Source: Streptantibioticus cattleyicolor NRRL 8057 = DSM 46488
GTDB lineage: Bacteria; Actinomycetota; Actinomycetes; Streptomycetales; Streptomycetaceae
Direction: 5' to 3'
Assembly (NCBI RefSeq): GCF_000240165.1
Contig: NC_017586.1
Coordinates: 868,001-932,000 of the forward strand
DNA length: 64,000 nucleotides
Shown: in pieces, positions 40,008 through 54,022 of the stretch
Layout: every line of letters begins with the position of its first letter
Numbering within the stretch: the first letter of the stretch is position 1
Made by a program: the position numbers and the translations under genes
Notes under the pieces: generated by a model
What the model saw: only the letters and a program-made list of their open reading frames with translations
The model's database searches: none
What the model was told of the DNA's origin: nothing

Positions 40008-40045
40008 CGAACGGGCCGTACGGGAGCGCCCGTACGGCCCGTTCG
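40008..40045. terminator. Perfect 17-bp bidirectional hairpin
   Basis: CGAACGGGCCGTACGGG at 40008-40024 pairs perfectly with 40029-40045 around the 4-base loop AGCG. It sits between the converging lyase and etfA genes. Confidence 0.85.
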
Positions 40046-52213: not shown

Positions 52214-52465
52214 ATGGACTTCAGCGTCACCGCCGAGGAGGAGGCGCTCGTCTTCCGGCTGGCCGAACTCCTGGACGCCGACACCCGGCCCCGGGAGGCG
52301 GAGCTCATGGACGAGCTGGGCCCCGACATCGCGGAGCAACTCGACGACCTCGACGGGAAGGGATGGGTCGTCGTCCAGCACGCGCTGACCGGCGACCGCA
52401 TGGTCGTCGACCTGACGTCACCGGCCTGGCAGGCGGTCCGGAACCGCCGCGACGCCGGCCGTTAG
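52214..52465 (+). CDS. Small acidic hypothetical protein, 83 aa
   Basis: An 83-residue, strongly acidic protein with no recognised family. Two helices (EEEALVFRLAELLDA, DELGPDIAEQLDDLD) are followed by strands GWVVVQHAL and DRMVVDLTSPAW, a pattern that could be a small winged-helix-like domain. It fits a leaderless mRNA: TAGCCT at 52202-52207 lies 6 bases before the ATG. It ends convergent to, and overlapping by 4 bases, the sigma-operon membrane protein gene. Confidence 0.6.
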   Translation: MDFSVTAEEEALVFRLAELLDADTRPREAELMDELGPDIAEQLDDLDGKGWVVVQHALTGDRMVVDLTSPAWQAVRNRRDAGR

Positions 52466-52872
52466 CGAACGCGGGGCGTCCGGTCCGCCGCCCGGGCGGG
52501 GCCGCCCGTCCCGCGCGGATCGGGCCCCGGCCGCGACGGGACCGCGTCCGCGGCGGACCGCCGGGCCTCCGGCGTCCCGGTCTCCCGCGGCGTGGACACC
52601 GTCGGGTGGGGCGTGACGCTGCCGATCGGGGCGAGGGGCTGCGGGGCACGGCGGCCATCGGGCGCGGAGAGGCCGACGGCCACGGTGACCGCGGTGGCCA
52701 CGACGGCGAGCGCGCCGGCCGCGGAGAGCGCCGCGCGGCGGCGGCGGATGCGCCGGCCGCCGACGACGGCCGCGTCGACGACTCCGGGCAGCGCGGGCTC
52801 CGGCCGCGCGCGCAGGATCTCCTCGAAGGCGGCGTGCACGGCGGCCTCGTCGGGGTCGTGGCGTTCGTCCAT
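52462..52872 (-). CDS. Small membrane protein downstream of SigE-family sigma gene
   Basis: A 136-residue protein: an acidic N-terminus (DERHDPDEAAVHAAFEEIL), one membrane helix at about 51-72 after RRIRRRR, then a Pro/Thr/Arg-rich extracytoplasmic tail. It starts 8 bases after the sigma stop codon, so it is in the same operon. The layout is common after Streptomyces SigE-family sigma genes and may modulate the sigma factor, but it lacks the zinc anti-sigma motif. In the current sequence the frameshifted sigma frame reads straight into it. Confidence 0.6.
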   Translation of the reverse strand: MDERHDPDEAAVHAAFEEILRARPEPALPGVVDAAVVGGRRIRRRRAALSAAGALAVVATAVTVAVGLSAPDGRRAPQPLAPIGSVTPHPTVSTPRETGTPEARRSAADAVPSRPGPDPRGTGGPARAADRTPRVR

Positions 52873-52880
52873 ACCCGGCC

Positions 52881-53391
52881 TCACCTCCCGGTCCGTTCGC
52901 CCGCCAGGCGTTCGACGATCTCGCGCAGCCGGGCGAGCCCGCGGGCGCTCTGGCTCTTGACCGTGCCCGGGGTCACCTGGAGCGCCTGCGCGGTCTGCTC
53001 GACCGTCCGGTTCTCCCAGAACCGCAGTACGAGCACGGCCCGGTAGCGGGGCGGCAGCTTCAGCAGGGCCTCGTGCATCATCAGTCGCAACTCCGGGGTG
53101 GCCGACACGGTAGCGGGCAGATCGGGTGGCTCGCCCACCGGCTCCTCCCGCCAGCCCCCCCTTGCGCCGCTGGTCGATGAAGGTGCGGGTGAGGATGGTG
53201 TGCGCGTAGGCGTCCACGTTGCCGTCGCGGCTGACCCGTCCCCAGGCCGCGTAGAGCTTCATCAACGCGGTCTGGGTCAGGTCCTGCGCCTGGTGCCAGT
53301 CCCCGCACAGCAGGTAGGCGCTGCGTCGGAGCTGTGCCTGCCGTGCCTCGGCGAATTCCCGGAACTGCCGCTCCCGGACCGCTTCCCTCAC
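52881..53391 (-). pseudogene. SigE-family RNA polymerase sigma factor, frameshifted at a G7 tract
   Basis: Sigma region 2 is in one frame from the GTG at 53391: REFAEARQAQLRRSAYLLCGD, AQDLTQTALMKLYAAW and AYAHTILTRTFIDQRR. Sigma region 4 is in another frame down to the stop at 52881: LKLPPRYRAVLVLRFWENRTV, then TAQALQVTPGTVKSQSARGL. The switch falls at a run of seven C on the plus strand (53155-53161). With six, the protein would read RRKGGWREEPVGEPPDLPA and be about 169 residues, the normal SigE-family length. This may be a real mutation, a phase-variable tract or a sequencing error. The gene has its own promoter inside the inverted repeat described separately. Confidence 0.8.
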
Positions 53392-53432
53392 TTCCGACCA
53401 ACCCTCCGCTCGCGCGCCTCCCCGCGCAGATA

Positions 53433-53525
53433 CATACGGAGGGCGGGCCCCGCGGGGTTGCACGGCGCGGCACGGAGATTTTTCCCGCCGCGCCGTGCAA
53501 CCCCGGCCGTGCCCGTTTCCGTACG
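53433..53525. promoter_or_regulatory. Divergent matched promoters of the sigma operon and secreted-protein gene
   Basis: Plus strand: GCAACC at 53497-53502, 17-base spacer, CGTACG at 53520-53525, upstream of the secreted-protein gene. Minus strand: GCAACC at 53461-53456, 17-base spacer, CGTATG at 53438-53433, upstream of the sigma gene. Equal -35 and near-equal -10 elements at the same spacing suggest that both are read by the same ECF-like sigma factor, most simply the SigE-family protein encoded here (autoregulation). Confidence 0.6.
53453..53505. repeat. Perfect 19-bp inverted repeat
   Basis: Positions 53453-53471 and 53487-53505 are perfect reverse complements separated by 15 bases. Each arm contains GTGCAACCCCG, the -35 region of one of the two divergent promoters. 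The repeat could also fold as a strong hairpin if transcribed. Confidence 0.9.
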
Positions 53526-53588: not shown

Positions 53589-53918
53589 TTGTCGAAGCAC
53601 CGCAAGATCACCCAGAACCGCCGCATGATGTACAGCCTGGCCGCCGGAGCGGCGCTGGTCGCCGCGGGTACCGGCGGCGTCGCCAGCGCCGCGACCCCCA
53701 CCCCGGTGCCGGCCCACCAGGCCCACGCGGCCACCCCGGTCCCGGTCCCGGCGCACCACGCCGACGCCGCGACCCCGGTGCCGGTCCACCGTGCCGAGGC
53801 CGCGACCTCGGTGCACCACACCGAGCCGGCGGCCCACGCTCGCCACGCCCACGTGGAGAACGCCGCCCACCCCATCTCCGAACTGAGCGCCGCTGAGCGG
53901 GCGAACGCGGTGGGCTGA
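53589..53918 (+). CDS. Small secreted Pro/Ala/His-rich protein
   Basis: A 109-residue secreted protein. After a basic N-terminus (KHRKITQNRR) comes a hydrophobic segment and a likely cleavage site in GGVASAA-TP near residue 35. The mature part consists of imperfect repeats of about 14-17 residues such as HQAHAATPVPVPAHHADAAT (key unit AATPVPV-H), rich in His, which could bind metal. It ends with HPISELSAAERANAVG. Only a TTG start at 53589 fits, preceded by GAGGAAGAGCG. Its promoter matches that of the divergent sigma gene. Confidence 0.65.
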   Translation: MSKHRKITQNRRMMYSLAAGAALVAAGTGGVASAATPTPVPAHQAHAATPVPVPAHHADAATPVPVHRAEAATSVHHTEPAAHARHAHVENAAHPISELSAAERANAVG

Positions 53919-53978
53919 TCCACCGAGGCGCACACCGGGGCGTGCGCCGCCTCCGTCGCGGCGTCAGCCGTGGAACGG

Positions 53979-54013
53979 CCCTCGGGCCACGCCGCCGTGG
54001 CGTGGCCCGAGGG
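53979..54013. terminator. Perfect 15-bp hairpin
   Basis: CCCTCGGGCCACGCC at 53979-53993 pairs perfectly with GGCGTGGCCCGAGGG at 53999-54013 around a 5-base loop, between the secreted-protein gene and the converging 61-aa gene. Confidence 0.8.
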
Positions 54014-54022
54014 CGGGGCGGC

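Follow-up and report, generated by a model that had tools for sequence, protein, structure and literature searches.

Paired outward-facing promoters probably link a SigE-family sigma operon to an exported-protein gene in Streptomyces and related genera

Streptomyces and its relatives encode very many ECF sigma factors, a large share of which have no known target. The locus described here, which lies in a window of 64,000 nucleotides of the Streptantibioticus cattleyicolor NRRL 8057 = DSM 46488 genome (contig NC_017586.1, positions 868,001 to 932,000 of the forward strand), raises the question of whether a single sigma factor serves two promoters that face away from each other, one before a SigE-family sigma operon and the other before the gene of a small exported protein. 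A first-pass annotation of this DNA had proposed that both promoters lie in mirror image in a perfect inverted repeat, that one ECF sigma factor, most simply the one encoded here, reads both, and that these genes make up a two-gene regulon.

We examined the repeat and the promoter elements in the window. The longest perfect inverted repeat between positions 53400 and 53560 is indeed 19 bp long, with its arms 15 bp apart, and a repeat search of the window placed it at the positions given in Table 1. No other perfect 19-bp pair (loop of at most 60) occurs in the window, and 20 first-order Markov randomisations of the window yielded no perfect 19-bp pair. The hexamers outward of each arm and the 17 bases between them are likewise exactly as first described, and the two divergent elements are the sole matches to GCAACC-N17-CGTAYG in the window. 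Across the whole genome, GCAACC-N16-18-CGTAYG has 10 matches, compared with 6 for the reversed pattern; a single element is not a rarity, and the mirror pair with its conservation is the notable part. Two further perfect inverted repeats were seen in the window, one of at least 16 bp just past the exported-protein gene (53978-54014), which is possibly its terminator, and another of 17-18 bp with a short loop (40008-40045).

Table 1 Features of the divergent locus (positions in the window).
Feature	Position	Strand	Remarks
SigE-family ECF sigma gene, GTG start (53391)	52881..53391	-	Frame split between regions 2 and 4
136-aa single-span membrane protein, Pro-rich outer tail	52462..52872	-	Probable regulator (anti-sigma), by position and topology
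Sigma-side promoter GCAACC-N17-CGTATG	53433..53461	-	-35 53461..53456, -10 53438..53433; motif match
Left repeat arm	53453..53471		Holds -35 of sigma-side promoter
15-bp A/T-containing centre between arms	53472..53486		
Right repeat arm	53487..53505		Holds -35 of exported-gene promoter
Exported-gene promoter GCAACC-N17-CGTACG	53497..53525	+	-35 53497-53502, -10 53520-53525; motif match
109-aa exported low-complexity His/Ala/Pro protein, TTG start, RBS GAGGAAG	53589..53918	+	C-terminal ISELSAAERANAVG

The sigma gene itself is split in the window, where its two frames part near a homopolymer of seven identical bases (53155-53161); the break may be a sequencing error, a recent loss or phase variation. 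Despite this split, the promoters, the membrane protein and the exported protein are intact. The frame is open in 39 of the 41 orthologs compared below, the exceptions being the window and L064. Sigma70_r2 and Sigma70_r4_2 were found in the two window pieces, which comprise regions 2 and 4 only, and the intact orthologs are about 170 aa long and carry no extension. Against the SigE-family model TIGR02983 of NCBIfam, whose curated cut-off is 141.55 bits, three intact orthologs scored above that value (L031, 156.8; L003, 167.6; L046, 163.4 bits), and the two window pieces taken apart scored 73.3 and 72.4 bits.

Next, the conservation of the promoter pair was examined at loci picked by similarity of the sigma protein, independently of the motif. 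After removal of identical loci, 41 orthologs including the window remained (at least 71% identity), from the genera Streptomyces, Actinacidiphila, Embleya and Streptantibioticus; they come in part from related species, so the counts are not independent. The conservation upstream of orthologs that the first-pass annotation had expected was found, with GCAAC-N17-19-CGTA present on the sigma side in 41/41 and on the exported-gene side in 39/41. An AAC/CGT-type motif thus precedes the sigma gene itself in every ortholog, a pattern suggestive of autoregulation. In the available text of one account, ECF sigma factors generally have AAC/CGT promoters, autoregulation and membrane-bound anti-sigma factors, and the AAC/CGT core of the present motif fits such promoters (PMC3426412). 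The bases of the required pattern carry 2 bits by construction; among the neighbours that it does not require, the T before the motif and the C after it are conserved as well, with 2.0 bits each on the sigma side and with 1.2 and 1.5 bits, respectively, on the target side. The spacer bases adjoining the elements mostly carry at most 1 bit, and the spacers vary widely among loci while the elements stay constant. On both strands together, the 12,300 bp of upstream DNA (300-bp regions) hold 80 copies of the motif, versus 0 in 248,141 bp elsewhere in the same loci, and shuffled upstream regions gave 0.085 matches per set. A search of 394 genomes with GGTTGC-N20-50-GCAACC-N16/17-CGTA matched 43 genomes, many of them by chance, as controls match too; when the same place had to match on both strands, 14 genomes remained: the one that contains the window, and 13 others with the sigma gene. 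Embleya-type loci escaped this pattern because their target side reads GCAACG. The whole divergon was also seen in two copies with different exported proteins in each of two genomes, G027 (C34 and C45) and G106 (C1 and C14, loci L058 and L034).

Natural separations of the two genes were also seen. The two orthologous loci without a target promoter, L131 (genome G396) and L132 (genome G261), keep the sigma promoter and have no exported-protein gene at that place. In G261, a gene for an exported-type protein lies at C1:2742343, 2.6 Mb from the sigma gene (C1:5378043), and this relocated gene (L162) stands behind GTGCAACC-N16-CGTACT. G396 has the sigma gene; motif searches of its genome did not find an exported-protein gene, and the single target-type match there appears to fall within a coding gene. 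The converse case is G114, which has the exported gene and its promoter; no sigma ortholog was found in that genome (best identity 42%, all 57 candidates scored) and no sigma remnant in the 3-kb locus. G114 either counts against strict dependence on the local sigma factor or represents a sigma gene lost recently. With a longer target pattern, G114, G396 and G261 gave no match; that pattern is too strict, as G261 and G114 do hold the gene. Sequence comparison thereby establishes the promoter pair, its conservation and its retention with each gene after separation.

Few strict sites were found at other genes. In 16 genomes, RTGCAACC-N16/17-CGTA has 44 matches, of which 32 lie at the divergon or the sigma gene, 1 at the relocated exported gene and 11 elsewhere. 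The reversed control has 7 matches in the same genomes, slightly fewer than those 11, so there is no clear excess of strict sites elsewhere. Four of the 11 (L156, L150, L171 and L159) were inspected. At L156 (G396:C1:1003268), the strict motif is followed after 46 bp by a lipoprotein gene that has a good ribosome site; in G396, for which the searches gave no exported gene, this could be an extra target or a replacement for it. L150 (G000:C1:126906-126981) precedes a transporter-like gene, with a similar case in G169 (L112); its palindrome, GGTTGCAACAT.CTACC ... GGTAGCAAGATGCAACC, looks like a different operator that matches the pattern by accident. No convincing start was found near the strict motif at L171 or L159. 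Furthermore, the target-type motif TGCAACC-N16/17-CGTACTYC has 17 matches in 15 of 394 genomes, compared with 2 for its reversed control. Thirteen of these 15 genomes have a sigma ortholog (19 such genomes were recognised from nine candidates scored per genome, besides the window's own), and the other two are G114 and G240, the G240 match appearing to lie in coding DNA. The sigma-bearing genomes that this pattern missed have other bases after CGTA. When the exported protein of G114 was used as the query against the 394 genomes, eight genomes gave a match: G114 itself, six in which the gene stands beside the sigma gene, and G006, with an unrelated protein and no motif. This search was confined to one clade because the exported protein evolves fast. 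Overall, a nearly private regulon, read presumably by the local sigma factor, is well supported by these comparisons; the small regulon proposed earlier holds for the strict motif, with 33 of 44 matches in 16 genomes at these genes, and degenerate targets may exist elsewhere.

We therefore consider it likely, with a probability of about 0.8, that one sigma factor, in the orthologs the local one, reads both promoters. This reading, which is that of the first-pass annotation, gains support from the motif counts of 41/41 and 39/41, from the absence of the exported gene at both loci that lack the target motif, and from the same promoter before the G261 gene 2.6 Mb away. Counting against it are G114, the sigma gene of G396 with no exported gene found, the split sigma frames of the window and L064, and the 11 strict sites elsewhere. 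An unlikely alternative is that the two promoters are read by some other SigE-family paralog, alone or along with the local sigma factor. It draws on G114, where the exported gene still has its promoter although no sigma ortholog was found, and on the paralogs themselves: of 57 SigE-family loci at a greater distance (not de-duplicated), 18 have NCAACC within 250 bp upstream, in some cases as ACAACC followed by CGTA or by another -10, and the closest of them combines ACAACC with a CGTA -10. In S. coelicolor, most of the tested sigma-E targets are partly active without sigma-E, which the available text attributes to other ECF sigma factors (PMC6767563). On the other hand, the exact motif was found on neither strand in any of these 57 loci, and it follows the present sigma clade: of the 15 genomes that have the target-type motif, 13 also carry the ortholog. 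CAACC thus recurs before several paralogs, and the exact pair is characteristic of the present clade. Upstream of L017 and L019, the nearest SigE-family paralogs, ACAACC with a CGTA -10 differs from the motif by one base at -35, possibly a simple specificity shift between sigma clades.

The symmetry of the repeat fared differently from the promoters that it contains. Among the 39 orthologs with both motifs, the two arms share an identical run before GCAACC of at most 3 bases in 31, and that of the window, 10, is the longest. Over 13 outer positions, past the RT and the base next to it, the arms agree in about 0.44 of cases versus about 0.38 expected from column make-up, a small excess that falls mainly at two positions (0.62 and 0.59, against expected values of 0.43 and 0.39). 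Hence the repeat beyond RTGCAACC is hardly conserved: the promoter pair of the earlier description is the conserved unit, while the perfect 19-bp repeat in which it was said to be shared is special to this genome. The two GCAAC elements lie 35-37 apart in 32 of the 39 loci, 48 apart in five, and 33 and 25 apart in one each. Helical phasing, with one-turn steps between the GCAAC elements, was considered and dropped, since the distance of 33 breaks the series and the independent classes are few. The central 13 bases have a mean A+T content of 0.54 (39 loci, a value given without a control), and in many orthologs the centre is an A/T-rich GGAAA..TTTTCC-like core, which could act as an upstream element common to both promoters.

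The perfect repeat could also be read as an operator for a dimeric regulator of both genes, with the promoter-like elements as by-products of the palindrome. The 19-bp repeat lies far beyond chance in the window and agreement between the arms is slightly above that expected from column make-up, but the symmetry outside RTGCAACC is weak across the 39 orthologs, each half persists alone where the genes are apart, the separation of the halves varies from 25 to 48, and the conserved CGTA sits outside the arms, at promoter spacing. We regard this operator reading as very improbable and set it aside. That the pair is a functionless outcome of shared ancestry or of base-composition chance carries next to no weight, because, even though many of the 41 loci come from related species and a high G+C content favours such matches, the flanking DNA of the same loci holds no match, the spacers differ widely while the elements stay, and the element is retained after the genes have separated.

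We then considered the two other products of the locus. The membrane-protein gene directly follows the sigma gene in 40 of the 41 orthologs (38 recognised by script, the window by its frame and L131 by eye; L135 was unparsed). The layout of the protein, a cytoplasmic N-terminus and one membrane span, is that of the membrane anti-sigma class; conservation covers its first ~45 residues, and a Pro-rich tail follows. A structure model of low confidence (mean pLDDT 68.6, pTM 0.25) has helices at residues 7-22 and 31-68 and a disordered tail. Searches found no anti-sigma family match in Pfam (14 members) or NCBIfam (14 and 23 members), and matches to CU044_5270 were weak, occurring in 3 or 4 members with a best value of 3.3e-5 and none above the cut-off. 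Judged by position and topology, this protein is probably a regulator (anti-sigma) of the sigma factor.

At all 39 loci with a target promoter, the promoter is followed by a small ORF with an export-type N-terminus, as judged by a simple hydrophobicity rule (36 loci together; L125, L126 and L135 separately). The body of the protein is of low complexity, rich in His/Ala/Pro in the window, in Ser/Pro/Val in others and acidic in still others. The earlier description as a His/Pro-rich secreted protein is accordingly apt for the window and fails as a general trait, the protein being His-rich only in some lineages. No credible match was found in Pfam or NCBIfam; eight members of one clade gave weak scattered matches, the best being 3.2e-4 in one member. 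In one clade the protein ends in (S)ELTAAERA(N/S)AVG, and such a clade-specific conserved tail, of the ELTAAERANAVG type, could conceivably be a released signal.

The composition of this exported body was compared with that of the outer tail of the membrane protein. Their acidic fractions correlate with a Spearman coefficient of 0.89 over 35 loci, with two loci at contig ends (L038, L041) and four unparsed or lacking the gene (L006, L131, L132, L135) left out, and the raw correlations are high for acidic residues, His, Pro, Ser and Val. In independent contrasts, from which the window and L064 were also omitted, the acidic fraction gave r 0.46 (p ~0.004, 33 loci; one of nine fractions, uncorrected) and the others Gly 0.59, Ser 0.35, Pro 0.31, Val 0.28, His 0.22, Thr 0.19, basic 0.19 and Ala -0.33. 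Control pairs gave acidic -0.31 and Ala 0.48 (exported protein versus sigma), and acidic 0.34, Ser 0.29 and Val 0.47 (exported protein versus the membrane protein's conserved core). Because the contrasts weaken the correlations and some control pairs correlate too, this covariation is a lead only. A closed surface loop, in which the disordered outer tail has the exported protein as its ligand or partner and the sigma factor sets the amount of the very molecule that its own regulator senses, is a speculative extension that we hold with little confidence.

Taken together, the locus could work as follows. The SigE-family sigma factor with RNA polymerase would recognise the two outward RTGCAACC-N16/17-CGTA promoters, one driving the sigma operon (sigma and the single-span membrane protein) and the other the exported repeat protein. 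As both promoters would be read by one sigma factor, its activation would raise the sigma factor, the membrane protein and the exported protein together. Through its short cytoplasmic part the membrane protein most likely keeps the sigma factor inactive, and with its disordered tail it most likely senses the cell surface, such that a surface signal would free the sigma factor; the exported protein would be the output of the module. Recognition by this very sigma factor, the anti-sigma role and any action of the exported protein are what we infer from the arrangement.

Comparison with known systems places the module among ECF circuits. The nearest parallel with exported targets is SigK-RskA of Mycobacterium with MPT70/MPT83 (ECF18/19), where, in the available text of PMC7509140, an ECF sigma factor is likewise co-transcribed with a membrane regulator and has a small regulon (eleven genes) that includes exported proteins. 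Unlike the present case, SigK belongs to another sigma clade, the proteins are unrelated, and RskA is a described anti-sigma factor, whereas the present membrane protein matches no anti-sigma family; mirror-image promoters receive no mention in the available part of that account (PMC7509140). ECF41 resembles the present sigma factor in having essentially one detectable adjoining target behind a conserved promoter motif (PMC3426412). According to the same partial text, however, ECF41 has a fused C-terminal regulatory domain, enzyme targets and a TGTCACA -35, and divergent order occurs in <20% of cases (PMC3426412), compared with 39/41 in the present module, whose sigma factor lacks an extension. 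Sigma-E of S. coelicolor (SCO3356) shares the ECF-type promoters with AAC at -35 and CGT at -10, so far as the accessible portions state (PMC6767563, PMC10771440); its combined regulon comprises 212 genes, mostly with a CGTC -10 (PMC10771440), versus CGTA and nearly one locus here. Weak promoters of S. albulus include that of a SigE-family sigma factor, not necessarily the present one (PMC12835213). This divergon is not known to have been described before, and no description was found among the matches listed, a scope of titles and abstract beginnings that left subscription papers mostly outside, where a description is possible.

These results indicate that the target of an ECF sigma factor may be readable from DNA, through a conserved promoter pair, a natural separation in which each gene retains its promoter, and the scarcity of strict sites elsewhere. 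The module would offer a surface-signalling circuit small enough to test, in which two protein families are undescribed, and the sigma factor and its promoter are a candidate pair for an orthogonal genetic switch.
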